A DNA stretch of 23,942 nt from a virus. The stretch lies in the IMG/VR virus record IMGVR_UViG_3300043395_002573, positions 1 to 23,942 of that record; one strand, 5' to 3'. Positions 2,464 to 23,912 of this stretch are shown here, piece by piece (within the stretch, counting starts at the first letter, position 1; every line of letters begins with the position of its first letter). A program made the position numbers and the translations under genes. The notes beneath the pieces are model-generated. The model saw only the letters and a program-made list of their open reading frames with translations, was not told the origin of the DNA and ran no database searches.

Positions 2464-3828
2464 CTACGCCATCTTCAACCGGACGACGCCCGAACCGTCC
2501 ACCAACATTCCGTCGGTTTCCTTGCGGGCGAAGAAGCCGGTCTGATTCGTCGCGGCGTAAAGCTCGTTCACGCGCTGAATACCGAAGTTGAGCGAATCGA
2601 CGATCCAGTACGCGCGCTTCCAGTTACCAAGCGCCGCCACGTACAGGCCCGTGGCGGAACTGGACGGCGCATACTCCGTCATGTTCACCGGGAACCCAAG
2701 CAGATCGTTCGGGCGGCCAGCCGGAGCGATGAGGCCGAAGATCGGGAGGTCGTTGCCATCCTTGATCTGCGACATTTCCTTGACGATCGTGCGATGGATG
2801 ATCCACGACGCGCCCGGCCCGTACTGCGGCTTTAGGCCGTAGACGGTGCTGGAAACATCGTCGTAGGCGAGGTCCGTGGCCGACGCAGCAGTGACATCCG
2901 TCGGAAGACCGGAGACGAAGACGCCCTCGGGCCGGTTGAAGCCAGTGCCCGTCATAAAGGCGCTTTCCTCCGCCTCGGCGAACCGGTTGGCAATCTCGCC
3001 GCGCAGCCACGCCTCGACGTCGACCGCCGACATGCGCAGGAGCGTGTTGGAGACCTTGACCGCCTTCGCCAGCGGATGCGGGCGAAGCTGGCGCTGGCCG
3101 AACGGCTCGGCCGTGTCCTGCGTCCCGGTACCAATCTCCGTCGTCCACTCGGCGTCCGTCAGGTCGCTCGCCGTCGGAACGGTGAGGGCCGCGCCCGCCG
3201 TCAGCGGGGGCAGCACGTTCGCCAGGCGCCGCATGACGACCGCGTCCTCTAGTGCCTCGATGATCTGCGACAGCATGACCTCGGAGAGCACGAGGAAACC
3301 GCCGGCCACGTCGGACCCGACAGACAGCGCCTTGCGCCGGATGAGCGCGCGATCGTCGCTCGAAAAGTCAGCCCCGCCCTCGGCGATGTAGCGCCGCTGT
3401 AGGGCCGTGTACGTCGCCTCGTCGCGGCCGGTCCAGTCAGCGAAGACCGCGGCGCCGCCCGCGGGCGTGTGGACCTTGTACGCGCCGTCGTTGGCCTTGT
3501 ACCGGATCGACGGCCCGTCGTTGTCATTGTCGTCCGTGGCCTTGGAGCCGACAGTGCCACCCGACGCCATGCCGGGCAGCTTGCCCGCGCTCGTGCCAAG
3601 CCAGTCCTCTAGCTCCTGCGCCTTGGACTGGCGCTTGGCGTCCGTCACCGCCTCGTCCGCAACGGCCTTCTTAGACAGAGCGTCCTCGATCGCCGCGTCG
3701 TACGAAGCCGCGGACTCGGCGCTATCCCAAGCGCCATCCTTCTTGTGCGCGTCGAGAATGTCCTGAGCCGCCTTTTGGGCGACGCGGGCGTCCTCGATCT
3801 TCGCCTTTGCGAAATCCGTAATCATCAT
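2464..3828 (-). CDS. Major capsid protein, HK97 fold
   Basis: A 454-residue HK97-family capsid protein. Residues ~1-100 form a charged, Ala-rich helical delta/scaffold region that the prohead protease would be expected to remove. The mature shell domain begins around 'AVFADWTGRDEATYTALQRR' and contains family landmarks: 'SVGSDVAGGFLVLSEV' (N-arm), 'DAVVMRRLANVLP', 'AEPFGQRQLRPHPLAKAVKVSNTLL' (spine and P-domain), 'FMTGTGFNRPEGV' and the C-terminal 'FFARKETDGMLVDGSGVVRL'. Two adjacent ATGs are possible starts; the second has AGGA four bases upstream and is slightly better placed. The gene starts two bases after the protease stop, so the two are coupled. Confidence 0.97.
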   Translation of the reverse strand: MMITDFAKAKIEDARVAQKAAQDILDAHKKDGAWDSAESAASYDAAIEDALSKKAVADEAVTDAKRQSKAQELEDWLGTSAGKLPGMASGGTVGSKATDDNDNDGPSIRYKANDGAYKVHTPAGGAAVFADWTGRDEATYTALQRRYIAEGGADFSSDDRALIRRKALSVGSDVAGGFLVLSEVMLSQIIEALEDAVVMRRLANVLPPLTAGAALTVPTASDLTDAEWTTEIGTGTQDTAEPFGQRQLRPHPLAKAVKVSNTLLRMSAVDVEAWLRGEIANRFAEAEESAFMTGTGFNRPEGVFVSGLPTDVTAASATDLAYDDVSSTVYGLKPQYGPGASWIIHRTIVKEMSQIKDGNDLPIFGLIAPAGRPNDLLGFPVNMTEYAPSSSATGLYVAALGNWKRAYWIVDSLNFGIQRVNELYAATNQTGFFARKETDGMLVDGSGVVRLKMA

Positions 3829-3830
3829 TC

Positions 3831-5045
3831 CTAGCCGTGAGTGGTGAGGGGGAGTAGGTTCACATCCGCCTCTAGCAAGCCGAGTTCAACCGAAAGCACG
3901 CGTAGGACGTCGTCGTCATAGCGCGCGTCGGCGGCCGAAACGTCGGTGCTATCCACGGCCTTCATGGACGACTTGTCGTCGCCCGCGTCGGTGTTCTTAG
4001 CGGCCTCATCTTCGGTGCCCTTGGCGGCGTCGCGAATGCGCGTAAGGAGCGCAAGCGCATCATCCAGCGCGGATAGGAGGTTCCCCCTAATCACGCGCCC
4101 CGCCTTCATATCAATGCTCGCAGCGTGGACGATTGCCAGCGCGTCTATCTCAGACATCGCCAGCGGATCGTCCGCCTTCGCAACAACCGTGACCGTTTCG
4201 ACTAGGTCCACCTCAACGGGTTCGCCTAGCTTCACGTCACCTTGTTCGTAGCTATATGGAATCTTGTAGTGCTTGTTGCCCTCGCGGGCGTACACCTGGA
4301 AAATGACGTAGTCGTTGAACGTCGAGCGAATCCACCCGTCCGTCGTGCCGTTCCCCACGCCAAGCAACTGCGCCGCCCGGACGGCCGCGTGAACGTCGTC
4401 GCGGATGGACTCATACGAGCCCTCCAGCTTGGCCTTGGCCTCGATATCCCCCGCGTCGTCGTCTTCGGCCTTGACCTTGGTCACGCGCGCGGCGCCGTTG
4501 ACGGCTTTCTTCCGCAGGGCCGGCCCCCACTCGATAAGCTTTAGCTCGACGAGTTCGGTGACATCCTTGCCGAAACGGGTGCGCGACTTGCGCTTTTGAA
4601 TCTCTTCGTAGGTGACGGACATCCGGGGCGGCTTGCCCTCGTCCGTCATGCGTTGCATAGTCTCCAGGTAGGCGATGTTCTCGGGGGTCAGCATGACCTG
4701 ACCCTTGCAGTACAGCCCGCCCGTTGCGTCCGGCGCGGCGGCCAGGATGTCGGCCGGAAGATCGTTTCGCCCGACCTCCGCCACCTCTAGCGTTGTTCCG
4801 ATCCCGCGCTCGTGGTCAATCCCGAGAATCGCCTTAGTCCCGCGCTCGCGCACGCTCTTGGCGAACGCGCCATTGACGATAACCTCGGACACACTGTCAA
4901 CGTTCCCGAAGACTGCCGCGAACCCCTCCAGAATCCCGTCACCATTGAAGTCGACGACGCCGAACGGGAGCGCCTTTGTCTGAACCGGCCTACTGCCCAA
5001 CACGTACCCCCAAATGCAAATCGCCCGCCGTACGGGCGAGCGCAT
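3831..5045 (-). CDS. HK97-type prohead protease with C-terminal extension
   Basis: A 404-residue protein whose first ~200 residues are a U35/HK97 prohead protease, a serine protease that matures the capsid shell. 'ILEGFAAVFGNVDS' opens the domain, His78 lies in 'GIDHERGIG' and the nucleophile Ser143 in 'RMSVTYE'. The remaining ~200 residues carry a separate domain, 'WIRSTFNDYVIFQVY...YKIPYSYEQGDV', that accompanies proteases in several high-GC siphophages, followed by an acidic tail that may act in scaffolding. The annotated ATG (5045) lacks a good ribosome-binding site; a TTG at about 5000 follows GGGGG by six bases, so the true start may be 15 codons downstream. Confidence 0.93.
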   Translation of the reverse strand: MRSPVRRAICIWGYVLGSRPVQTKALPFGVVDFNGDGILEGFAAVFGNVDSVSEVIVNGAFAKSVRERGTKAILGIDHERGIGTTLEVAEVGRNDLPADILAAAPDATGGLYCKGQVMLTPENIAYLETMQRMTDEGKPPRMSVTYEEIQKRKSRTRFGKDVTELVELKLIEWGPALRKKAVNGAARVTKVKAEDDDAGDIEAKAKLEGSYESIRDDVHAAVRAAQLLGVGNGTTDGWIRSTFNDYVIFQVYAREGNKHYKIPYSYEQGDVKLGEPVEVDLVETVTVVAKADDPLAMSEIDALAIVHAASIDMKAGRVIRGNLLSALDDALALLTRIRDAAKGTEDEAAKNTDAGDDKSSMKAVDSTDVSAADARYDDDVLRVLSVELGLLEADVNLLPLTTHG

Positions 5046-5195
5046 TGCGCGGGCCGCGTAGGCGGGCGAGCGGGAAATAGACTCCCGCGGGCCAGTATTC
5101 AGTCCGTCCGGGCGGACGGTGGACGATCAATCAGCGGGGCGTCAGTCCAACAAATCTTGGGAGAATGGCCAAATGACGTTCGCCCCGCGACGCGC
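5023..5195 (-). other. Structured 5' leader of the capsid operon
   Basis: Between the promoter at 5196-5204 and the protease start, the transcript can form several perfect stems: GCGGGGCG with CGCCCCGC (5181-5188 with 5134-5141), a CCGTCCG/CGGACGG hairpin near 5103-5119, GCGGGA/TCCCGC (5083-5088 with 5070-5075), and CGCCCG/CGGGCG just inside the first codons near 5024-5040. This is dense for a 150-base leader. It could protect the very abundant capsid mRNA, control protease translation, or stop transcripts arriving from the methylase gene. No T-run follows any of them. Confidence 0.5.
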
Positions 5196-5204
5196 ATTAT
5201 AGCA
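5196..5204 (-). promoter_or_regulatory. Extended -10 promoter upstream of protease/capsid genes
   Basis: On the minus strand this reads TGCTATAAT, a perfect -10 hexamer with the TG extension one base before it, preceded by GTG. There is no recognisable -35 at 16-18 bases, as expected for an extended -10 class. It lies after the inserted restriction-modification gene and would restore strong transcription of the capsid genes. The same core occurs at 7927, 18773, 21665 and 22509. Confidence 0.75.
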
Positions 5205-5223
5205 CACGGGCGTATGCGCTCCG

Positions 5224-5253
5224 CTAATAACGCCTCTTATGTACCAACGTCAA
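5224..5253 (-). promoter_or_regulatory. Possible second capsid-operon promoter
   Basis: TTGACG (5248-5253) lies 18 bases upstream of TATTAG (5224-5229) on the minus strand, a good -35 with a mediocre -10. It starts only 15 bases after the stop of the restriction-modification gene and is in tandem with the stronger extended -10 site at 5196. Confidence 0.35.
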
Positions 5254-5267
5254 TTGATAGTGATTCG

Positions 5268-7775
5268 TTAGAATGTCGGGCTGTGCGTGACCGGGCTGGC
5301 GTCAGAGTGACCACCTAAGGGCCGGGTGACCTTTTCGAGCGCGGCGAAAAACTCTTCGCGAGTAATCCCCGCACCTTCATCGCCTTCCCCGTAGGGCGCT
5401 TCGCGCTCGGCAACCATTGAAACCTCCTGTGGACCATAGTCCCCTATCGCCGTATCGATGATTCGTTGGATTTCGCCCAATCGTCGCGCAACCCACTGAC
5501 GAGCAAACGGCGTAATTGGAACGGGCAACTCACCAATTCGCGGGGGCGTTAGCTTGCGACCATAGTTGAATCTCCAGCGTTCCAAATGAAGGCACGCGGC
5601 GGCGATGACAAGATCAGCGGGCGTCAAGTCTAAAGACTCTTTGGGTAGGAGAACGAGACAATCGTCATTGACCGCGCACGGTTCAAATTGCACGAATGCC
5701 TCGCCGATGCTGCCCGTCTGCGCCACGGTTACAAACGGCGCTTCTATGACCGGCGCGAAGTCCAACCAGCCATAGCATCCGTTGTATGCCTCTGTGGGGG
5801 AAATAACAAGAGTCTTGCCAGGGGGGATACCTTCCCGGCTGTGAAGCTCTTTCATTCCGTAGAAGATATCGAATAGTCCGCCAATCGTCCCCGGCGTCGC
5901 CGTCAGACTTGCGGCATTCCTAAGCCTTGTAGCACCAACTCTCTCCCGATATGGCACCACTTCCAGTTCGCCCGCATCTATGGCCGCGCGTTGTTCGGCA
6001 ATCTCACGAGCATATCGAACGTAGAACGATCCCAGCCTGCGAAGCAGCACGTCTACAGCCCGAAGCAGCTCTGCTTCCGTCGGCACGGGAGAGGGAATGT
6101 AGGCACCGACCGCCCATTCGTCCGCACCGCTTACCGATCCAAGCCCCGAGAATCCCGGACGGACAGTCCGATTCAGCACGGCATCTATCGCCGCCGGAAT
6201 GTCATTCTCCGCAACCGGCACCCTCACACCCTTCCTCAGGGCCAGTCCGTCATGCTGCAATCGTACAAATACCGTCTTTCGCTTTGGATCGTGCGCCACT
6301 CCGCGTTCGATCATCACGACCGACGTTGTCGACGACGCGAACGGGGCGAACAACTCGTCCGGCATCTGCAAGATCGCCAGGAGAGTATTGTCCTTTAGAA
6401 TGCGTTCGCGCCATGCGCCCTTGTCGCCCTTAACCAATAGACTTGTTGGCAGGATAACGGCAAGTCGCCCGCGCAGGGCCAGCCCCTCAAGCGCACGGTC
6501 CACAAACCGTTCCGGCGGCACGTCGGTCTTCTTGTGGGGGAACGGTGGATTCATTAGGGCTACGGTTGCCCTGCCAACCGGAAAGTCGCTTGCCGTAAAG
6601 CAGTCGCCGCGCCGAACGCCTGTCGATCCGTCGCCTCTAAGGATCATGTTGGCGACACACAGGGCCGCCGTGATCGGCTCTTTCTCGTAACCTACTAGAC
6701 GATTCCTGACAAACTCAACTACCTGTTCGCGAGATAGGCCACCCTTCATCATTACTCGCAGCATGACGGCTATCAGGAATCCGCCCGTTCCACAAGCAAT
6801 GTCTAGTGCAATGTCATCCGGTGTAACCTCGCACAGCTCCACCATCATCCCGGTTGCATGACGGGGTGTGAAGTATTGACCAATCGTATTGCCGCCAGTG
6901 TATCGAAAGAATGTCTCATATAGCTGGCCGAGATAGTCATGCTCGGCCGTTAGGACGGTGACGTTCAGTCTTTCAAGGATCGCGACAATCCGGCGGGCGT
7001 GAATTGCAAGCCCTTGGTTGGCCTCGTCAACTCGCAGGCTGTCGGCTAGATCGGGCTTACCAGCGCGCCAAAACGCCGCCTTGCACGCCTCATTGATATC
7101 TGAAAGGATGTGGGCCTTATCCTGCCGGATATTGCCCTTGGTACTCCACAGGGCAAGCATAATCGCCCCAAGCACCCCCGGTCGAAACTCATCCTTGATC
7201 CCCGATTCTCGCAGCAATCTGTTAATTTCGTCCGCCCGCTCCGCCAACACTTCCGGCGGGGGGATCGTTGGTCGCAACTCCGCCGGGGCATCGGGCGGCA
7301 CAACGCGTTCAAGGTCTGCACGACTGGGAAGCCAGCCGATAGGCTCGCCCTCGTATGTGACAGGCACCCACTCCCGCCCGGTCCACTTTAGAACCCGAAG
7401 GGAGTATTGATCCTCGGTCGTGCCCGCAAGGCCAACGGCCAACGTCTGGTATCCTGCGGCAACGCACGCGGCACCATAGACCTCGGTCGCTTCCCGAACC
7501 GCCTGTCCTAGCTCGGCCGATCGTGCCTTGGCTTCTATCACCATTAGGGGGACGAGGGATTCGCGGTCCACCACGACCGCCTCCGGCAGGCCAGAGCCAG
7601 GCCCGCGCTTGCTTGCCCGAAGGAAAACCTCTATTAGGGCCGGATAGCTTCGGTACTCCTGTTGCAGGAGCACATCACCCCTCGGGGGGCGTCGCGTATC
7701 CCACCCTTGGGCCGCGAGCAACTCCGTCAATAGTTGTTCGGCGCGGCGCTCGGACACGCGAAGGGCTTGGCCCAT
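5268..7775 (-). CDS. Single-chain type IIG-like restriction-modification protein (nuclease + N6-adenine methylase + specificity domain)
   Basis: An 835-residue multidomain protein. Residues ~1-150 resemble the HsdR N-terminal PD-(D/E)xK nuclease: Glu65/Asp70 in 'PEAVVVD', then 'MVIEAKA' with Glu81 and Lys83. Residues ~180-620 are an HsdM-like gamma-class N6-adenine methyltransferase: 'GQYFTPRHA', SAM motif I 'DIACGTGGF' (323-331) and catalytic 'NPPF' (409-412). The C-terminus (~620-790) looks like one target-recognition domain, with 'GGLFDIFYGMKEL' and 'LTPPRIGELPVP'. No helicase motor is seen, so cutting would not need ATP translocation. The ATG at 7775 (TGGAG ten bases upstream) is preferred over the GTG at 7811, which lies inside the operator-like dyad. 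Base composition is visibly less GC-rich than its neighbours, consistent with acquisition as a moron within the head operon. Confidence 0.9.
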   Translation of the reverse strand: MGQALRVSERRAEQLLTELLAAQGWDTRRPPRGDVLLQQEYRSYPALIEVFLRASKRGPGSGLPEAVVVDRESLVPLMVIEAKARSAELGQAVREATEVYGAACVAAGYQTLAVGLAGTTEDQYSLRVLKWTGREWVPVTYEGEPIGWLPSRADLERVVPPDAPAELRPTIPPPEVLAERADEINRLLRESGIKDEFRPGVLGAIMLALWSTKGNIRQDKAHILSDINEACKAAFWRAGKPDLADSLRVDEANQGLAIHARRIVAILERLNVTVLTAEHDYLGQLYETFFRYTGGNTIGQYFTPRHATGMMVELCEVTPDDIALDIACGTGGFLIAVMLRVMMKGGLSREQVVEFVRNRLVGYEKEPITAALCVANMILRGDGSTGVRRGDCFTASDFPVGRATVALMNPPFPHKKTDVPPERFVDRALEGLALRGRLAVILPTSLLVKGDKGAWRERILKDNTLLAILQMPDELFAPFASSTTSVVMIERGVAHDPKRKTVFVRLQHDGLALRKGVRVPVAENDIPAAIDAVLNRTVRPGFSGLGSVSGADEWAVGAYIPSPVPTEAELLRAVDVLLRRLGSFYVRYAREIAEQRAAIDAGELEVVPYRERVGATRLRNAASLTATPGTIGGLFDIFYGMKELHSREGIPPGKTLVISPTEAYNGCYGWLDFAPVIEAPFVTVAQTGSIGEAFVQFEPCAVNDDCLVLLPKESLDLTPADLVIAAACLHLERWRFNYGRKLTPPRIGELPVPITPFARQWVARRLGEIQRIIDTAIGDYGPQEVSMVAEREAPYGEGDEGAGITREEFFAALEKVTRPLGGHSDASPVTHSPTF

Positions 7776-7800
7776 GATGGTAGACTCCAGGGCGTGCGGG

Positions 7801-7823
7801 CTGGTTACCACAGGGTTAACCAG
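7801..7823. promoter_or_regulatory. Operator-like inverted repeat between promoter and start of the R-M gene
   Basis: CTGGTTA (7801-7807) and TAACCAG (7817-7823) form a perfect 7-bp inverted repeat with a 9-base spacer. It covers the expected transcription start of the promoter at 7827-7855. A protein bound there would block initiation, which is how many restriction-modification genes limit their own expression. The bound factor is unknown; no C-protein gene is visible beside it. Confidence 0.55.
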
Positions 7824-7826
7824 GAG

Positions 7827-7855
7827 AGCATACCCGATTTCTTACCTACTGTCAA
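7827..7855 (-). promoter_or_regulatory. Consensus sigma70-type promoter of the R-M gene
   Basis: On the minus strand TTGACA (7850-7855) is followed after exactly 17 bases by TATGCT (7827-7832). This is the only full -35/-10 pair of this quality seen in the window. It would give a leader of about 45 bases before the ATG at 7775. A strong housekeeping-type promoter suggests expression independent of the late phage programme, for example in a lysogen or early in infection. Confidence 0.8.
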
Positions 7856-7926
7856 GGGATAAGTCCCTCCACAATCCCCCTCCACTCGCGCCACAAACGA
7901 CCAAGGCCCAATGAAGCGTACGCCCA

Positions 7927-7935
7927 ACTATAGCA
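7927..7935 (-). promoter_or_regulatory. Extended -10 promoter upstream of R-M gene
   Basis: TGCTATAGT on the minus strand, directly after the stop of the small gene at 7942. It is one of five copies of the TGnTATAnT motif and shares the downstream bases TGGG with the copy at 22509. It stands 75 bases upstream of the consensus promoter, so the R-M gene appears to have tandem promoters. Confidence 0.6.
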
Positions 7936-7941
7936 CTCGCC

Positions 7942-8130
7942 CTATTCCGTCTCCCCGCCCTCGTCACCGCTACGCACGCGCCGTTCCATCGCGTCGATTC
8001 GCCGTTCGATCATCGCGAGATGATCGGCCAGCGCGCGGACGAGCGTGGTCATCGCCCGCGACAATTCGCGCGACGTGGCGTCGTGTTGCGGGGCGGACCA
8101 TGCGGGGGGCGGGGGGTTACGACTTGGCAT
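7942..8130 (-). CDS. Small charged helical protein, unknown
   Basis: A 62-residue frame whose ATG lies inside the end of the preceding gene (14-base overlap). After a Pro-rich opening, residues ~22-55 form an amphipathic helix 'RAMTTLVRALADHLAMIERRIDAMERR' with coiled-coil-like spacing. No ribosome-binding site of note, so expression would depend on coupling. It closes the portal/minor-head cluster before the R-M insertion. No family recognised; the regular heptads and tight packing argue that it is real. Confidence 0.55.
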   Translation of the reverse strand: MPSRNPPPPAWSAPQHDATSRELSRAMTTLVRALADHLAMIERRIDAMERRVRSGDEGGETE

Positions 8131-8284
8131 CGGATGAGTCGCCCCGCGCCTGCGACCCGCGAAGCACCCGCAGGCGCGGCTTGGGCCTCTTAGTCGGCAA
8201 GTCGACGATCTTCACAAACACCGCCTCGTTCGCCCCGTCTACGAACCGCTTGTCGTCCGGCCGTCGCTTTTTCGTCGTGGACAC
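8117..8284 (-). CDS. Small basic protein, unknown
   Basis: A 55-residue, strongly basic frame starting with GTG at a TAGTG overlap with the stop of the minor head gene. It begins MSTTKKRRPDDKRF and contains 'VFVKIVDLPTKRPKPRLRVLRG'. The stop/start overlap is the same arrangement used by most genes here, which supports it. A basic peptide in a head cluster might contact DNA or RNA inside the virion, but this is speculation. Confidence 0.6.
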   Translation of the reverse strand: MSTTKKRRPDDKRFVDGANEAVFVKIVDLPTKRPKPRLRVLRGSQARGDSSDAKS

Positions 8285-9558
8285 TATTCGACCTCCGTCA
8301 GCACGAACCGATGGATGCCATCCCGTTCGCCGGAGTACGCGATTGCGTAGCGGGATGGTCCCCAAAGCAAGATTTCGCGCTCGTCCTTTAGGGATGCAAG
8401 CGGAGTAATGTTCGTCGCGCTCCGTGTATGAATCTCCCAAACGGCGCGCTGTAACGTTCCCGTCTCGTCCTCGTGATATGCGTTCGCGAACTTCGCTGCC
8501 ACCTTCCCGTCGGCAGACGCCGACGCGTACACGTCGAACACCGTCCCCCGCCCGGCCTTGGCCGCCGCGATCCAATCGTCAATTGTGGAGGCGGGCAAGT
8601 CGTGGAACCCCCGGTAGACGGTCCCATTGAATCGCGGTGACGTCGCAAGCGCTTGTTCCATATGAGCCAGTGCGGTCTTCGCCCGCTCTGGCCCAATAAA
8701 CTCCCGCTCCTCGTCGATCGGCACGCCGGACTGCAATGCCCGGATGTCACGATATCCCCCGATCGACCAATCGCTGAACGCCCGGATGACGTCCGGGACC
8801 GGCCCGTCCTCATACTCGCCGGTTGGATCATAGCCCATCGAATCCAACCACTCCGCTTCGCTTTCGTCGCTCAGTTCGGGACGCGCCTCGGCCCCCGCAT
8901 CATCCGCCACGAAGCCCGTACCGTCGCCCGCATCGGCATCGCCCCCGTCGTCCGCTCCGTCCTCATCGGCTCGCGGCGGGCGGGACGGGATGCCAAGTTC
9001 TTCGACGAACGGGAATGCACTGCGGACGCAGTTGGGGTGACTGATAGGCTGCGCCTCGAATTCCTCTAGCGTACGGATGGTCCCGTCGGCCTCGTCTGGA
9101 TCGTCGTGTGACTCCCATCCGCAGCCTAGGCCGTCCACGATGACGACCTTTTCCACGAGCCCGCTATCCCGCCATCCCGCGGCGCTCGCCTGGTTGTACG
9201 TGACCGCGCTCTCCGTCCGGGCGATAGTCCGCGCGCGCCGCTTGTCGAACGCGCCGGAGATGTCCTCACGGATCGCCTTGGCGAGTTGGTCGATGCCCCA
9301 GCCCTCGTTGTTGGCCCGTTCCACGTAGCCGCGGACCCGCTCGCGCGTCGTGTCCTCGATGTTCACGATGCGGGCCGCCACGCCGCGGAGGATGCGGCGC
9401 GTCGCGGCCGCGTCGATCGGCTGGCCAGGGTTCATCCCTAGCTCGTCGCGGACGGTGTCTTGCGCGTCTTTGATCGCCCGCGCGCCGAGCCGCACCAACA
9501 CCCCGCGCATTCCGGCGGACTTGGCCGCGCCGGCTACCTTGTTCGCGTCGAACGGCAC
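8284..9558 (-). CDS. Minor head protein (Mu F / SPP1 gp7 type) fused to an ADP-ribosyltransferase-like domain
   Basis: A 424-residue fusion. Residues ~80-205 are a Mu-F/SPP1-gp7 head morphogenesis domain: 'RARTIARTESAVTYNQASAAGW', then 'IVDGLGCGWESHDD' and the closing 'PISHPNCVR'. An acidic linker (~210-265) leads to a C-terminal domain with the R-S-E layout of ADP-ribosyltransferases: Arg316 in 'TVYRGF', Ser346/Ser348 in 'YASASA' before 'KVAAKF', and an ExE pair at Glu393/Glu395 in 'KDEREILLWGPSRY'. The ExE pair suggests arginine as possible acceptor. As a portal-associated virion protein the domain could be injected with the DNA to modify a host target. The fusion is seen in the sequence; injection and activity are inference. 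Confidence 0.88.
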   Translation of the reverse strand: MPFDANKVAGAAKSAGMRGVLVRLGARAIKDAQDTVRDELGMNPGQPIDAAATRRILRGVAARIVNIEDTTRERVRGYVERANNEGWGIDQLAKAIREDISGAFDKRRARTIARTESAVTYNQASAAGWRDSGLVEKVVIVDGLGCGWESHDDPDEADGTIRTLEEFEAQPISHPNCVRSAFPFVEELGIPSRPPRADEDGADDGGDADAGDGTGFVADDAGAEARPELSDESEAEWLDSMGYDPTGEYEDGPVPDVIRAFSDWSIGGYRDIRALQSGVPIDEEREFIGPERAKTALAHMEQALATSPRFNGTVYRGFHDLPASTIDDWIAAAKAGRGTVFDVYASASADGKVAAKFANAYHEDETGTLQRAVWEIHTRSATNITPLASLKDEREILLWGPSRYAIAYSGERDGIHRFVLTEVE

Positions 9559-9824
9559 TAGTTCCCCCGGATCGCCTGCCAGATCGTCCCGGCGGCCTGG
9601 AGATAGCGGACCAACCGCTCGGCCTCGGCCTTGTCCCGTAGCGGGTAATAGGCCGTCTGGCCGGGCGTGTTGTAGGTGACGTGTAGGTAGGGCGCGTCGT
9701 CCTCGTCGTCGTCCATCTCGGGGACGTTCACGGCGAGGTCGCGCCAGTGGTCAGGGTGTAGGCCATGCATCTGCCCGTCCGCGTCCGTGAACATGATTAG
9801 GCCGACGCCGAACTCCGATCCCAT
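9558..9824 (-). CDS. Small acidic protein between portal and minor head genes
   Basis: An 88-residue protein starting at a TAATG overlap with the portal stop. The sequence 'GVGLIMFTDADGQMHGLHPDHWRDLAVNV' followed by an acidic run 'MDDDEDDAP' and 'YLHVTYNTPGQTAYYPLRDKAEAERLVRYLQ' suggests a small alpha/beta fold. The stop overlaps the start of the minor head gene. No named family recognised; it is presumably a virion or assembly component because it is locked between two head genes. Confidence 0.75.
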   Translation of the reverse strand: MGSEFGVGLIMFTDADGQMHGLHPDHWRDLAVNVPEMDDDEDDAPYLHVTYNTPGQTAYYPLRDKAEAERLVRYLQAAGTIWQAIRGN

Positions 9825-11434
9825 TACGAACCTCCGTCAGCTTCGTACGATGCCTCGATCGCCGCGATGGCCGCCTCTTGCGCGGCGACGAGCTCGCGAT
9901 ACACGTCACCAAAGAACTCGCCCTCGATCGCCTCCCGCTCGCGCACGCGCCGCGCAAGCGCCTCGTCTGGCGTGATCCGCGGCTTCCCGAACCGGGGGGC
10001 GGCCTTTGCGCCCGCCTTCGCCCCGGACCCCTCCAACGCGGCGCCAAGGGCGTCCTCTACGTCGGAGACGTCCTCGGGATCGGGTTCGGGCGTTGGGGGC
10101 GCCAGGAGCGCGCTTGCGGGCGTCACCGTGTAGCCGGCGGGGATGTAGTAGACGTCGCCGGCTCCGGCGGGGAGCCCGTCGCGCCCAATCTCGTTTAGCG
10201 CCTCGTCCAGTGTGAGGATGCCCGCCAGAAAGTCAGCGCGCGTCATCGCCCGTTGCTCGGCCTCGTTGGCTTTCAGCGCCTCCACTGTACCAAGGTCGAA
10301 CGCGATGACGAGCGCCCCGCCCTCGTCGTCATACTCCTGCCGGAACAACCGCCCGACGAGCGCGCCTGCCTTGCGCCAGCGCGGGACGAGCCGGGCCGTG
10401 GTGAACTCGCGTGTGTGTTGGTCGTCCACGCTGCCCAGCCCTTGCGGGCGCTGTAGGGCGACGTTCAGCCCGGCCATGCCGGGGGGAACCTCGAATGCGG
10501 CCGCGATCCGACTCTCGGGGATGTTGTGGAGGACTTCGGCGGCCATCTCCTGTAGGTTGGAGCCGAGCCGGCTAATCGTCACGCCCTCACCGCCCTGGAC
10601 GATCGCCACGCTCCCGCGATTGTCGCGCCCGTACTGGCGTTCGAATCGCGTCTTCAACGCTTCCATTTCCTCATCGGCGATCGGCGCATTGATCGCCACG
10701 ACACTGCGAGGCATGGCGTCGTTGCGGAGCAAGCTGTAGACGTAGGACTGAATCTCCGCGTCGGTATCGACGGCGCGCGCCGCGACCTCTAGCGGGGACA
10801 GCCCCTCTAGCGGGTTGCGAGGGTCTACGGCCCACTTGTACTGGAGCACGTCGAGCGGGGGGACCATGACTGCCGACGCATCGTCGCCCTCGTTGAACGT
10901 GTACAGGTAGCCCGCCAGGTACCCGTTCGGGTCTGGCACGGGGGCCATCTGCCCGCGGTGGAGTGGCCAGAGGGCAATAGGATGACCGGCCCGGTCGCGC
11001 TCGACCCAGATGAAGGCCGAGCCGCCGATAGCGGCGTACGTCCAGAACGCTTCCCAAAACTCCGGCTCCGTCATCGCCTCGTTTGGCTCGGCCAGGAGGG
11101 CGCGGAACTCGTGGGCCGGTTCCCGGACCCTGTCCCCCGTCTCTTGGTCGATTCGCCAGACGTGCGCCTCCGGCTCGGGCAGTCGGTTCGCGTACACGCG
11201 CACGCACGCGTACACAGCCGAGTTGGCGGCGTACCCTTCGTCAATCAGCCGGCCGAAGCGGTACTTCCGCCACTCGTGCCGTTTCCACGACGGCCACCAC
11301 GGCAGGCTGCCCGCGTAGTCGGACGCCTTGGACACCACCGTCCCCACGACGGCGGCCGCGGCTCCCGTTGCGCGGCCCAGGACAGTGCGGATGCGATCGA
11401 TGATGCCCGGTTCCCGGCGGGCGAGTGCGCTCAC
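9824..11434 (-). CDS. Portal protein (HK97 family)
   Basis: A 536-residue phage portal protein, the dodecameric ring through which DNA enters and leaves the head. Family landmarks are 'EGYAANSAVYACVRVYANRLPE' near residue 70, 'HEFRALLAEPNEAMTEPEFWEAFWTYAAIGGSAFIWVERD' (~125-165), 'VDPRNPLEGLSPLEVAARAVDTD' and the 'EVPPGMAGL' region before the tunnel helix. The C-terminal ~90 residues are charged and helical, consistent with the barrel. Start is GTG at a TAGTG overlap with the terminase stop, so it is translationally coupled. Length matches the family (about 400-550). Confidence 0.96.
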   Translation of the reverse strand: MSALARREPGIIDRIRTVLGRATGAAAAVVGTVVSKASDYAGSLPWWPSWKRHEWRKYRFGRLIDEGYAANSAVYACVRVYANRLPEPEAHVWRIDQETGDRVREPAHEFRALLAEPNEAMTEPEFWEAFWTYAAIGGSAFIWVERDRAGHPIALWPLHRGQMAPVPDPNGYLAGYLYTFNEGDDASAVMVPPLDVLQYKWAVDPRNPLEGLSPLEVAARAVDTDAEIQSYVYSLLRNDAMPRSVVAINAPIADEEMEALKTRFERQYGRDNRGSVAIVQGGEGVTISRLGSNLQEMAAEVLHNIPESRIAAAFEVPPGMAGLNVALQRPQGLGSVDDQHTREFTTARLVPRWRKAGALVGRLFRQEYDDEGGALVIAFDLGTVEALKANEAEQRAMTRADFLAGILTLDEALNEIGRDGLPAGAGDVYYIPAGYTVTPASALLAPPTPEPDPEDVSDVEDALGAALEGSGAKAGAKAAPRFGKPRITPDEALARRVREREAIEGEFFGDVYRELVAAQEAAIAAIEASYEADGGS

Positions 11435-12993
11435 TAGTCGTCTCCCGATTTCGTTTCGGGTGTTACGCCAGTAATGCGCACGGCCCTGGTAAGTGCGTAG
11501 ATTGCGATCCCCGCGGCGTCGACTTGGTCATCGTGCTCCCCCGTCGGGAACGCCACGAATTCCTCGACGAAGTCGTGGAGCCATGGGGCGGTCGTTGGAA
11601 TCCTCACCCGCCCCGTGCCGAAGTAGGGCGTCACGTCCTGAGCGCGCGCCTCCTTTGCCACCGCGCCCGGCTTGTACGGGTAGATCGGTAGCGACGACTC
11701 GCGCCGGAGCGTCTGAATGGCGCTGTGGCCCGACGCCTTGTCTTCGATGTACACGGCCGGCGAGCGGGATAGCTTGTCGCGCCAGAGCGCGAACATATCC
11801 CGGATCGCCGTGAGTAGGTCCGGGTATTCGACCCGGTCCCGCCACACATCCAGAACGTACAGCGCCTCTTTTGTCGCGCCCCATACCTGGATGACGCTGT
11901 AATCGGCGGACACGTTCGTTGAAAAGGCGCTATCGACCGACACGACGACAAGCTGGAAATGGGGCAGGACCGCGGGGTCGTACCTGTTCTCATCGTCGAA
12001 CCATGCGCGCTTGAACATCGATCCAGTGACGGCGCCGGGACGCTGCTGAAACAGGCTCTCCCAAACCGCCGGCTGTGTCGTGCGGATGACGTCCGTCGCC
12101 TCCGGCGGCCAGCGCGACGGCCATAGGTACTGGCCCGGCTCGCGGCCGAGCGGGTCATCGTCGCCCGCCTCCGCCACCTCCCGCATACACAGGACATCCC
12201 AACGCTCGCCGCCAAGAGACATCGATTTCAGGATGCGTCCGGCCGGATCGTCCGCGTGCCAGCGCGTCATCGTGAGGATGATCGCCCCGCCCGGCGCAAG
12301 GCGCGTGTACGCGTCGGAGATGTACCAATCCCATGCGCGGTCCCGGTACACCGCGCTCATCGCCTGTTCGCGACCCTTAATGGGGTCATCGATGTTTAGG
12401 GCCGACGCGCCGCGTCCGGTCAGAGACCCGCCCACACCCGCGGCGATGTACCCGCCCTGCCGGCCGGCGATGCCCCACTGCCCGACGGCCGCCTCGTCGC
12501 GGCGCAGCTTCACCCCCTCGAACGGCCACAGCGGGTCCGTAAGCTGGCGCCGAACCTTCCGGCTAAAGTCGTGGGCGAGCTCGGCCGTGTGCGAACATGA
12601 CATGAACCAACAATCGGGATTGCGCCCGAGATACCAGGCCGGGAAGTGGACGGACGCGATGAGCGACTTCCCGCGTCGCGGCCCCACGAAGATGGCAAGG
12701 CGCTTTATCTCCCCGCGCTCCACCGCCTCCATATGCTCGATGATGATTTCGTGGTGGCGAGCCATCTCGTACTCGCCGGGGAACATGCGCAGGATGTATT
12801 CCCCAAGGCTCGCCCGTGCCGCGATCGGGCCGGCCAGCGGTAGCAGCGCGGCCAGCGCCGCGTCGACACGCCCGCCGTCGGTGGACGAGGGGCGGGATGG
12901 GGGCGAGGCCGGGTCCGCTTCCGGGGGCGAGAGAAGAGGCCACGCCACCCGGTCCGCGCGCCCCCCTACCACGGCCGAGCCCGCGCCGGTCAA
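11434..12993 (-). CDS. terL: Terminase large subunit
   Basis: A 519-residue packaging motor. The N-terminal ATPase has Walker A 'VGPRRGKS' (103-110), a Walker B-like acidic cluster 'LNIDDP' (199-204) and the coupling motif 'LTMTRWHADDPAGRI'. The C-terminal RNase H-like nuclease shows its acidic residues in 'VVVSVDSAFS', 'VYIEDKASG' and 'HDDQVDAAGIAIYAL'. I chose the TTG at 12993 because it overlaps the TGA of the small subunit gene (TTGA) and has GGGAG just upstream; the frame remains open to 13194 but that part overlaps the small subunit gene. The first ~45 residues are Pro/Ser-rich and may be a flexible tether, or the real start may be slightly further in. Confidence 0.96.
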   Translation of the reverse strand: MTGAGSAVVGGRADRVAWPLLSPPEADPASPPSRPSSTDGGRVDAALAALLPLAGPIAARASLGEYILRMFPGEYEMARHHEIIIEHMEAVERGEIKRLAIFVGPRRGKSLIASVHFPAWYLGRNPDCWFMSCSHTAELAHDFSRKVRRQLTDPLWPFEGVKLRRDEAAVGQWGIAGRQGGYIAAGVGGSLTGRGASALNIDDPIKGREQAMSAVYRDRAWDWYISDAYTRLAPGGAIILTMTRWHADDPAGRILKSMSLGGERWDVLCMREVAEAGDDDPLGREPGQYLWPSRWPPEATDVIRTTQPAVWESLFQQRPGAVTGSMFKRAWFDDENRYDPAVLPHFQLVVVSVDSAFSTNVSADYSVIQVWGATKEALYVLDVWRDRVEYPDLLTAIRDMFALWRDKLSRSPAVYIEDKASGHSAIQTLRRESSLPIYPYKPGAVAKEARAQDVTPYFGTGRVRIPTTAPWLHDFVEEFVAFPTGEHDDQVDAAGIAIYALTRAVRITGVTPETKSGDD

Positions 12994-13445
12994 CCGCTCC
13001 CCCCAAGTCCCGCCACGCGGGCCGCACGGAGGATCGCCAGCGCCTCGTCGGCCGACATCTCTTCGCCAGGCCGGACGGACGCCGCCACGTCGACGCGCTC
13101 CGGCGCGTCCAGGCCAAGCAGCTTGGCGCGCTGCGCTTCGATCCGCAGGACGCGGTCGATCGCCCCAAGATCGCCGCGACGGCACGCGGGCCAAATGGCG
13201 AGGATCATCGCGTCGAGTCGTTCCAACGTCATCGCGCGCAGTTCACCCGCCGACTCGTTGGCCTCGGCCACGATGCGGGCCAGGACGGTTGCGACGGCCT
13301 TCCGCGCTCCCGATTCTGACGCGTAGCCAACGCGCTCGGCAATCGCGCTGTAGGACGCTCCGGCCTTCCGAAGCTCCATCGCCTGTTTCTGTCGCTCGGC
13401 TGCCGTTACCTTGTCGGCCGTTGCCTTACGTGTCGCTCGTGCCAT
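12990..13445 (-). CDS. terS: Terminase small subunit
   Basis: A 151-residue protein directly upstream of the large subunit. Residues ~15-55 form a helix-turn-helix DNA-recognition unit, 'AERQKQAMELRKAGASYSAIAERVGY' followed by 'SESGARKAVATVLARI', and the central part is helical (oligomerisation), ending with 'LGLDAPERVDVA', a sequence style common to small terminases. The family binds the packaging-initiation site. ATG start with AAGGG eight bases upstream. A perfect 7-bp dyad sits between this start and the preceding gene. Confidence 0.9.
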   Translation of the reverse strand: MARATRKATADKVTAAERQKQAMELRKAGASYSAIAERVGYASESGARKAVATVLARIVAEANESAGELRAMTLERLDAMILAIWPACRRGDLGAIDRVLRIEAQRAKLLGLDAPERVDVAASVRPGEEMSADEALAILRAARVAGLGGSG

Positions 13446-14147: not shown

Positions 14148-15203
14148 CTACCCATCCCGGTCCAATCTCCCGTCCCGCTGGTGCATAAGTTCGGGGACGA
14201 AGTGCCATCCCCTTGTTGCGCACAGTTCCTTCGTCACCCTCGACCCGCCCACAACGAGGAACAGCGGGTCCGCGCCCGCATGTTCGCGCGCGAGTTCGTA
14301 GTCCCGTTCCACCGCGTGGAGCGATCCGTCCAGGCCGCGCGTCGCGTACGCCGTCCATCCCTTCGGAACGCCGAGCATGTTGTGAGCGCGGAACTTGTCT
14401 GACACGTTTAGGTCAACGAAGACACGAATCCCGAACGACTGAACGTACCGGGCGATCCAGCGCTTTTGGTAGATGCGGAACAGACCAACCGCCGTGGGCA
14501 TTTGATCGTTGGTCGAACAGTTCGGTTCCACGATCGCCCCGACACCACTACTCACGATCTTGTTAGGGTCTGCCCAAATGGCGTTGAACTTGTAATCGTC
14601 AGTGTAGAAGTGATACGTTCCCGTCAGCCTGGCCGTACGGGCGGTATCCCCCCACTTGTGCAAGGGGAGCTCCACATGGCGCGCCTGCAACTTGACGTCG
14701 AGTGACGGGACTTCGAACTCATTGTCAGAGGGGAAGATCGCGTCGGGGACGTAGTCGGGCGTATCGGGCTCGTCGCCCCCGCCCGTTGGCGCCCCACCCG
14801 GCTCGTCCGCGACGTCGAATATCCCGGCCAATAGGTCCGCGTTCTCGCCGGCCAGTTGTGACAGGAGCTCGTCAAGGATCGCGTCGTCCGCCCCGGCCAG
14901 GGCCGAGATGGGATCGAACGTCGCCAAGATCGCCAGTTCTTCGGCTGGCTCCAGTTCGACATACACCACGGGGACCGACGGGACTCCGTGCCGCAGGGCA
15001 AGCGCCACGCGCAAGTGCCCGTCCACGACGTGCCCCGTCGTCTTGTTCACGATGACGTTCTGAACCCAACCGACCCGTTCCAGAACGGCCGACAGCGCGT
15101 CCCCCTGCATCGCGGGGTGGACGCGCCAGTTCAGCGGATGTGCAAGTAGTTGGTCGGGTGGCACGTCGCCAGTGCCTACGATCCGGTTCCGAAAATCCGT
15201 CAC
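14148..15203 (-). CDS. ParB-like N-terminal domain fused to DUF4417 domain
   Basis: A 351-residue two-domain protein. Residues ~10-115 are a ParB/Srx-like nucleotide-binding domain: 'LLAHPLNWRVHPAMQGDALSAVLERVGWVQNVIVN' then 'GHVVDGHLRVALALRHG', as in ParB proteins and phage ParB-methylase fusions. A Pro/Gly/Asp linker follows. Residues ~185-350 match DUF4417: 'TYHFYTDDYKFNAIWADPNKI', 'VEPNCSTNDQMPTAVGLFRIYQKRWIARY' and 'FVDLNVSDKFRAHNMLGVPKGW'. DUF4417 has no established reaction. Start is GTG with AGAGG nearby. Usual ParB-methylase fusions lie next to terminase genes, so this may be a DNA-directed enzyme in which DUF4417 replaces the methylase. Domain calls are from recognised motifs; function is unknown. 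Confidence 0.82.
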   Translation of the reverse strand: MTDFRNRIVGTGDVPPDQLLAHPLNWRVHPAMQGDALSAVLERVGWVQNVIVNKTTGHVVDGHLRVALALRHGVPSVPVVYVELEPAEELAILATFDPISALAGADDAILDELLSQLAGENADLLAGIFDVADEPGGAPTGGGDEPDTPDYVPDAIFPSDNEFEVPSLDVKLQARHVELPLHKWGDTARTARLTGTYHFYTDDYKFNAIWADPNKIVSSGVGAIVEPNCSTNDQMPTAVGLFRIYQKRWIARYVQSFGIRVFVDLNVSDKFRAHNMLGVPKGWTAYATRGLDGSLHAVERDYELAREHAGADPLFLVVGGSRVTKELCATRGWHFVPELMHQRDGRLDRDG

Positions 15204-22543: not shown

Positions 22544-23443
22544 TCATCGCGCCATCGCCTCCTGACCAACGGCGATGTCCAGCGCGACCCGGCCGCCGGC
22601 CACGATCCACGACTCGAACGTCGGCGACGTCGCGTCGTCCCGCTCGCGCCACATGCCGCCGACCCAACGGACGTAGTGGCGCGTCTCGGCGACGGGGTTG
22701 GTCACCCCGCCAGGGCCACCGTTGAACGCCGCCGCGGCCCGCTCTACCGTCGCCTGCCAGCCGTTCGCCTCGTCGCCGGGGACCGCGTACTGGCGAAGTA
22801 GGTCGGCGAGGAACGCGGTCCCGACGTCAAGGTTGTGGTCAGGGTCGAACGGCCCGGCGCCCTCTAGGATACGCGGGTGCCAGCGGGCAACGACCTGCAT
22901 AAGCCCCTGCGCACCGGCATGGCTCCCGGCATTCGGGTTGCCCGCGCTCTCCACCGTGACGATGATCGCCACGAGCGCCGGGTCGACGCCGTAGCGGGAC
23001 GTCGCCGCGCGGATGTTCGGTTCCCATCTGGCGACCGTCGGCGGGATCCACGCCGGCAGCGGCGCTCCCGCGGGGGCAGCCTCAAGCTCGGCGGCCGGCG
23101 CGACCGCCCCCGGCTCCGTCGCGTATCCGTCCTGCAACGCCATACGCGCCTCGGCCGTCGCCGCCGCGTGCGCGTCCCGCCCTGGCAACTGTCCGGCCGC
23201 GCCGGATAGTTCGCTCGCCGCGCTGACCACGCCCTCGCCAAGCGGCAGGCGCAGCGCCCGCCCGCCCGAGGCCGTGGCAATGAGGACGGAGGCGATGCCC
23301 GTGACGACCGCGGCGGCGAATCCGACCGCTAACCCCTGCCACCGCGGGACGGGTTCGACGAGCCATCGCCCGGTGGCGGGGAACGCACGCGCGACGTGCC
23401 GGGCGAGGACTAGGGGGATCGCGGGGGCGCGGTGGTTACTCAT
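22544..23443 (-). CDS. Membrane-anchored lytic transglycosylase (SLT domain)
   Basis: A 299-residue protein. Residues 38-59 'LAVGFAAAVVTGIASVLIAT' form a weakly hydrophobic Ala/Gly/Thr-rich anchor of the kind found in signal-anchor-release enzymes. After a ~70-residue Ala-rich linker comes a goose-type lytic transglycosylase domain (~135-285): 'YGVDPALVAIIVTVESAGNPNAGSHAGAQGLMQVV' with catalytic Glu165, then 'LDVGTAFLADLLRQY' and 'RAAAAFNGGPGGV'. It cleaves the peptidoglycan glycan strand, for host lysis or, less likely so far from tail genes, for DNA entry. The ATG at 23443 (AGGAG eight bases upstream) overlaps the end of the Lar-like gene; an ATG five codons earlier is possible. Confidence 0.92.
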   Translation of the reverse strand: MSNHRAPAIPLVLARHVARAFPATGRWLVEPVPRWQGLAVGFAAAVVTGIASVLIATASGGRALRLPLGEGVVSAASELSGAAGQLPGRDAHAAATAEARMALQDGYATEPGAVAPAAELEAAPAGAPLPAWIPPTVARWEPNIRAATSRYGVDPALVAIIVTVESAGNPNAGSHAGAQGLMQVVARWHPRILEGAGPFDPDHNLDVGTAFLADLLRQYAVPGDEANGWQATVERAAAAFNGGPGGVTNPVAETRHYVRWVGGMWRERDDATSPTFESWIVAGGRVALDIAVGQEAMAR

Positions 23444-23912
23444 ACCCCCACTCCTCATTGCTCAGCGGGCGGATGCTCTTTATGCCTCTTAGTCGCGCGA
23501 AAAACGGTGAGCCACGCCACTCTGTGCCGTCAGGCGCAATAAGACCATGCAGCGTAACCAGCTCCCTGCCCGCGTGGCGCAGGTCGAACCAGTGCCAATC
23601 CGACCCGTCGCGCCATTCGATGTAAACGTGTTGCCCGACGAGACCGCTCACAATCTCCGCAATGTCCGCCTCCCGTTCGCGCTTGGCCCCGCGCTTGGCG
23701 AGCCGCGCGACGGCGTTCCACTCGGCGATGGCGTCGGCGGGGGTACCAGTCGGCCCCGTCGCGTGGCACCCTTGCGGCATGTCGCACTGCACGAACGTCT
23801 CGTCGGACGTATCCCACAACATCCCCCGCCGCGCCCTCCGCCCCGCCGCGCGGCAGTAGGGGCAGCGGGCGATACGGGGGAGCGGGGTAGACACGGCGTC
23901 GTAATCGCTCAT
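23436..23912 (-). CDS. Lar-like zinc-ribbon protein (restriction-alleviation family)
   Basis: A 158-residue protein whose first 70 residues show the Lar-type zinc ribbon: 'IARCPYC' (Cys17, Cys20), then 'FVQCDMPQGCHATGP' (Cys43, Cys49) and the closing 'DAIAEWNAVARL'. Rac-prophage Lar modulates host type I restriction, though most phage members are uncharacterised. The C-terminal 90 residues form an extra domain with 'GLVGQHVYIEWRDGSDWHWFDLRHAGRELVTLHGLIAPDG'. ATG start overlaps the upstream stop (ATGA) with GGGGGGAAGG upstream. Anti-restriction function is by family only. Confidence 0.8.
   Translation of the reverse strand: MSDYDAVSTPLPRIARCPYCRAAGRRARRGMLWDTSDETFVQCDMPQGCHATGPTGTPADAIAEWNAVARLAKRGAKREREADIAEIVSGLVGQHVYIEWRDGSDWHWFDLRHAGRELVTLHGLIAPDGTEWRGSPFFARLRGIKSIRPLSNEEWGYE

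Follow-up and report, generated by a model that had tools for sequence, protein, structure and literature searches.

A predicted single-chain restriction-modification enzyme between two head genes of a virus, and its transposon-borne relatives

How a restriction-modification (R-M) gene comes to lie among the head genes of a virus, and what it may do there, is the question raised by this locus. The sequence studied is an IMG/VR virus record of the metagenome type; "the window" denotes the whole stretch of DNA analysed (23,942 bases).

The interrupted head operon

The head genes are encoded on the minus strand. The terminase gene (11434-13194), assigned by Pfam/PHROG-type family matches, is followed by the portal gene (9824-11434) and the MuF-like minor head gene (8284-9558; PF04233, E 1.1e-05; phrog_2468, E 5.5e-16), with an 88-aa ORF listed between these two. 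Further downstream, the prohead protease (3831..5045; phrog_3244, E 2.4e-08; phrog_80, E 1.9e-07) and the major capsid protein (2464-3828) are encoded. The junction between the MuF and protease genes is 3.2 kb long and contains the enzyme gene, a 62-aa ORF (7942..8130, minus strand) and a second short frame which, as read by eye, overlaps the end of the MuF gene. An R-M fusion gene splitting the minor head gene from the protease gene had been proposed from the sequence; the corresponding ORF was found at 5268-7811 (minus strand, 847 aa counted from GTG 7811), with the MuF-like and protease genes as its flanks. Within this frame, which is open to GTG 7811, ATG 7775 is the likelier start, since the relatives align from this codon and a Shine-Dalgarno-like box (GGAG) is located upstream of it. 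The enzyme accordingly most likely counts 835 aa (5268..7775).

The insert is absent from a related contig, L009, which has the same PHROG families. Here the MuF and protease genes are contiguous, with a junction of 20 bp (MuF stop at 3939, protease ATG at 3960, capsid gene at 4627). Single-protein scans of the viral contigs with the R-M protein or the capsid protein found no relative; scanning with MuF recovered two distant loci. The base composition is in line with the prediction of an insert less GC-rich than its surroundings: its GC content is 0.591 compared to 0.664 for the rest, the GC3 of the enzyme gene is 0.631 (0.690-0.868 in the 14 other window genes), and its codon distance of 0.190 is the largest among the 15 genes. 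Judged by these values, the enzyme gene is foreign to the phage and was acquired horizontally.

Tandem promoters had been ascribed to the insert. The first, a near-consensus sigma-70-like promoter TTGACA-N17-TATGCT, is present at 7827..7855 (minus strand, 10 of 12 consensus matches), in a region (4900-8400) where the count of promoter-like sites alone is within chance (3 compared to 1.2, sd 1.0, in shuffles). The second site, the extended -10-like GTGCTATAGTTG (7936-7925), is probably not the insert's own. It is part of the extended -10-like motif GGGCGAGTGCTATAGTTG at the upstream border of the insert (7925..7942, minus strand), and the window contains two copies of the 18-bp form GGGCGWGTGCTATAGTTG, at 7942-7925 and at 18788-18771, upstream of the Ro60 gene (0.01 expected, 100 shuffles). 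Because of this second copy, the 18-bp motif is probably one of the phage itself. A related motif GTGCTATAATGC, with one mismatch to GTGCTATARTNG, is found before the protease gene at the downstream border (5194..5205, minus strand); the 12-base form alone is within chance (6 matches, 3.7 expected, two mismatches allowed). We take GGGCGWGTGCTATAGTTG and the weaker GTGCTATAATGC for putative promoters of the phage on either side of the insert. A dyad CTGGTTA-N9-TAACCAG (7801..7823, no strand assigned), read by eye, lies immediately downstream of the -10 element of the sigma-70-like promoter and is a possible operator. No stem terminator with a T-run was found from 5268 to 5045, the nearest candidates being located at 5042-5021 and, inside the enzyme gene, at 5373-5357. 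Transcription from the inserted promoter may therefore extend to the capsid genes.

The gene has the traits of a moron: an own promoter, foreign composition and absence from a relative (a single, distant one). Of the "recent moron" in the original prediction, the insertion stands, given the unoccupied junction in L009. The recency is unsupported: no close relative of this phage was found, and L009, at 43% terminase identity the best terminase relative of the window phage, is distant, so the insertion is seen but undated.

Elsewhere in the window, the gene next to the second copy of the 18-bp motif encodes a Ro60/Rsr-like protein (16742-18430, minus strand; NF041674, E 3.4e-174, below the cut-off). 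Upstream of it lies an RNA (18520-18660, minus strand; z -2.24) that has no match in Rfam or ARAGORN. It folds into parts resembling an anticodon arm, a T-arm, an acceptor and a D-arm, whose order is permuted as in the Y-RNA-like YrlA. A DUF4417 protein whose N-terminal part is ParB-like (14148-15203, minus strand) and a lytic transglycosylase-like protein (22544-23458, minus strand) are encoded as well.

Domains of the fusion protein

The N-terminal nuclease domain (aa 1-165; 7281..7775, minus strand) was delimited by alignment, HSDR_N and fold, and carries the pattern P64-[E/D]65 ... E81-x-K83. P64, E81 and K83 are invariant in all 15 aligned proteins, at identities down to 22%; the residue after P64 is E in the window copy, compared to the canonical D. 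For the HSDR_N search and for modelling, the N-terminal 169 aa of the window copy were used. Ten of the 14 family members matched HSDR_N (best E 7.1e-05), while the window copy stayed below the cut-off (E 0.0031). The AlphaFold2 model of the domain has a pLDDT of 89.6. Plain Foldseek of this model against the PDB gave no match with E <= 0.001; VIA-align on the Foldseek candidates placed HsdR (3h1t) first (Z 11.7, rmsd 3.7, 127 aligned), followed by BpuSI (3s1s, type IIG, Z 8.6) and BsaXI (8w2p, type IIB, Z 8.4). The original prediction depended on a PD-(D/E)xK fold in this part of the protein. By the model and the invariant residues such a fold is present, and an HsdR-like nuclease domain is predicted to sit in the methylase chain.

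The methyltransferase domain (aa ~276-552; 6120..6950, minus strand) contains motif I (IACGTGGF) and motif IV (NPPF) and was assigned by PF02384 and the fold of HsdM (2okc). In Pfam, N6_Mtase (PF02384) matches aa 290-555 of 847 with an E value of 5.4e-28 (98.6 bits, cut-off 20.4). GTGGF and NPP are conserved in 14 of 14 proteins of alignment A4. With SAM and NPPF/Y motifs both in place, the domain is predicted to be an adenine-N6 methylase. It is followed by a putative single type-I-S-like target-recognition domain (aa ~631-750; 5526..5885, minus strand), delimited by Methylase_S (aa 643-768 of 847; E 0.0022, 18.7 bits, below the cut-off of 22) and by the fold range; the 7eew and CamA fold matches of the full model extend to aa 780. 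The C-terminal tail (aa 751-835; 5268..5525, minus strand) is unlike the one common to the ParE-linked relatives described below.

The full-length model has a pLDDT of 78.1, with values under 50 around the NPPF loop (aa 413-419). It matches HsdM 2okc with Z 21.9, BsaXI with Z 19.3 across aa 3-538, and the M-S fusion 7eew with Z 21.5, the latter at an rmsd of 24 and therefore counting for single domains only. Taken together, the Pfam domains, fold matches and conserved residues show a predicted single polypeptide in which a helical linker joins an HsdR_N-like PD-(D/E)xK nuclease to an HsdM-like N6-adenine methylase, followed by a putative S-like recognition domain. This agrees with the type IIG-like nuclease-methylase-specificity architecture initially proposed.

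Pairwise comparison within group A (window, L004, L005 and L039) gives a higher similarity for the recognition domain than for the methylase in all six pairs (74.7% compared to 65.3%). The same applies to 30 of 36 pairs in group B, and to 10 of 36 pairs between groups A and B. Such a pattern points to a single conserved target in each group, at odds with the rapid change usual for specificity; the comparison covers this R-M family alone.

Relatives and their transposons

A scan of genome contigs gave two loci with 61% identity, in a Myxococcota MAG (L004) and in Luteibacter (L005); the copy in L005 is located near tRNA-Gln and rplM. At E <= 1e-150 and with the query genomes included, the enzyme was found in 1 of 369 genomes of the class of L005, in 1 of 195 of the phylum of L004, and in 4 of 233 of the family of Luteibacter (L005, L055-L057). 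Among the viral contigs (IMG/VR), 12 loci with 35-63% identity were found; the alignment A1 was required as query to recover them. The frames are intact in 13 of these 14 relatives (L004, L005, L039-L050), L046 having an in-frame stop. Of the viral loci, L039 (61-63%) comes closest to the window; its enzyme gene is preceded by a transposase and followed by a repeat-like end. In the tree, the window copy forms a clade with this transposase-bearing copy and those of Luteibacter (99/99 support). In the flanks of 11 of the 12 viral loci, no head genes in common with the window were found by tblastn; L050 has a terminase with 33% identity, and ORF comparison links the terminase of L044 to the window, too. 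Since the flanks are mostly unrelated, the movement of the enzyme gene is not tied to that of the phage. In an unrelated phage (L040, 8913-14278), the enzyme and a ParE-like gene, with one repeat end, are located between head-assembly and major head genes.

In seven of the 12 viral loci (L039, L041, L042, L043, L044, L048 and L049), an IS1595/ISXO2-type transposase gene, a remnant in L044, ends directly upstream of the enzyme gene. The transposase families of the relatives are PF12762/PF12760, and PF12762 was present in both transposases scanned (L039 and L048). A ParE-toxin-like gene is located downstream of the enzyme in nine of the 12. The transposon elements are 3.2-4.3 kb in size and end in GGCGATTATGCACTTGAC-type inverted repeats. 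Seven elements, L041 being left out, have both flanks readable; perfect 8-bp target duplications (8/8) were found in three of them (L043, L048 and L095) and are absent in four (L042, L049, L058 and L073). By transposase, repeats and 8-bp duplication, the relatives qualify, on sequence grounds, as cargo of IS1595-type transposons. The family is thus phage-borne and apparently transposon-borne elsewhere, which was not part of the original prediction.

The slot between transposase and ParE-like gene is occupied by several different R-M enzymes. The IS1595-type element in L058 (7372-11653) carries another R-M enzyme (888 aa, HSDR_N, N6_Mtase) followed by a ParE-like gene, and that in L095 (6919-11204) a further one (933 aa), again followed by a ParE-like gene. 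In L087 (11417-14335), separate M and S genes precede the ParE-like gene, with one repeat end only. A scan for the repeat pattern gave 40 stretches, with transposase matches in 11, R-M matches in nine and ParE matches in eight; six of the 40 lie on the contigs L040, L041, L042, L043, L048 and L049, and many others may be due to chance.

None of these mobile parts was detected in the window. Five transposases used in tblastn gave no match at E <= 1, the best match to the terminal-repeat consensus in 4900-8400 was 14/24 (shuffle mean 14.5), no repeat pair above 75% with a near-perfect duplication was found at the insert borders, and no ParE remnant was found. A homing endonuclease or a transposase, searched for by Pfam and tblastn, was likewise rejected for the window. 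The copy is therefore tied to the transposons by enzyme kinship only. It appears to be an immobile, perhaps domesticated relative; either its mobile parts may have been lost or it may have been acquired by another kind of recombination.

The otherwise different R-M enzymes have a tail of ~38 aa in common (D...A..RL....G..L...L). It is present in 12 of 12 proteins with ParE and in 2 of 10 without (Fisher p 0.00014, treating as independent proteins that are not, with a regular expression written post hoc). The window protein has neither the tail nor a ParE-like gene. We suspect a putative antitoxin in this tail. Pfam searches with five ParE-linked tails gave PF09720 as sole match (one tail, E 0.11), tail searches against PDB and plasmids returned nothing useful, and the ParE-like protein had no match in plasmids; with no confirmation from these searches, the antitoxin stays a hypothesis. 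Speculatively, a lineage of IS1595-type transposons could use phages to carry a guarded cassette, arranged as transposase, interchangeable R-M enzyme and ParE-like toxin, with the ~38-aa R-M tail as antitoxin in place of a separate antitoxin gene. The window gene would then be a domesticated escapee in the service of the phage, having dropped the toxin, the tail and the transposase all at once. If the tail is an antitoxin, restriction enzyme and toxin would be coupled as one addiction unit, and this would explain the persistence of such enzymes on phages. The accessible text of open PMC papers, PMC11092175 included, gave no description of such a cassette, which may still be described.

Possible roles and known systems

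The explanation we consider fairly probable is that of a single-chain type IIG-like R-M enzyme, acquired horizontally and placed, under its own promoter, between two head genes. Its recognition domain would guide methylase and nuclease to a common site. The former would mark the copies of the phage (and the host), and the latter would cut DNA without the mark, be it from competitors or from the host. The family would spread as IS1595-type transposon cargo, and the window copy would be a descendant whose mobile parts were either lost or never present. Exclusion of competing phages by the enzyme is plausible.

A selfish hitchhiker, i.e. an R-M cassette spreading by post-segregational killing and transposition without gain for the phage and tolerated where it inserts, is possible at a clearly lower probability. 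It would account for the transposon structure of the relatives with 8-bp duplications, for the ParE-like gene in nine of 12 loci, for the exchange of R-M enzymes in the same slot and for the second insertion into an unrelated head operon in L040. The window copy, however, lacks transposase, repeats, ParE and tail, yet its frame and catalytic residues are intact, which suggests use of the enzyme itself.

Somewhat less likely still is that the phage uses the methylation only, as protection against host restriction, with a weak or silent nuclease. Phage methylases commonly serve escape from host restriction, and in group A, among the domains measured, conservation is lowest in the nuclease (48% compared to 65% for the methylase). 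This is opposed by the invariance of P64, E81 and K83 across the 15 proteins.

Early degradation of the unmethylated host chromosome to feed replication, a role with precedent in chlorella-virus enzymes, which cut host DNA in this way, is improbable: the gene is located in a structural operon with no sign of early control, and an R-M enzyme would presumably modify the host DNA, too. An assembly chimera, in which a bacterial R-M gene was wrongly joined to the phage contig, is very improbable, since the metagenome-type record and the differing composition of the gene are outweighed by matching head-gene families on both sides, in one orientation and in the order of L009, and by the like insertion in L040.

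On the preferred reading of a type IIG-like enzyme, a complete, predicted cut-and-mark enzyme is carried as an extra gene in a phage capsid operon. It is tied to a mobile family that was inserted at least once more in a head operon (L040), and the transposon-borne relatives with their toxin-like gene suggest a route of spread between viruses and bacteria.

Among known systems, IS1595-family insertion sequences, which reportedly carry passenger genes, resemble the elements of the relatives (PF12762/PF12760 transposase, terminal repeats, 8-bp duplications), but share none of these features with the window. All three domains of the window enzyme resemble parts of type I R-M systems (HsdR, HsdM, HsdS). 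It differs from these in being one chain without helicase motor; no helicase was detected by Pfam across the 847 aa, and a type I system was rejected. BsaXI and BcgI (type IIB) similarly fuse an HsdR-like nuclease to an HsdM-like methylase. The S subunit of BsaXI is separate, whereas the putative S-like domain of the window enzyme is single and fused, with no S gene adjoining; type IIB identity was rejected for lack of a separate two-domain S subunit. An R-M protein of Acinetobacter phages (OQ101248 and others) is likewise phage-borne and has the same domain order at 22-23% identity, but its gene lies close to those of a repressor and an integrase, and the protein sequence, compared by eye, is closer to the transposon cargo of L058. 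In type IIG enzymes (BpuSI 3s1s; PADLOC REase_MTase_IIG), a single chain unites a nuclease, an N6-adenine methylase and a recognition domain, and the window enzyme is predicted to do the same. The PADLOC IIG matches cover its methylase part only, and its nuclease is nearer to HsdR than to BpuSI (Z 11.7 compared to 8.6).
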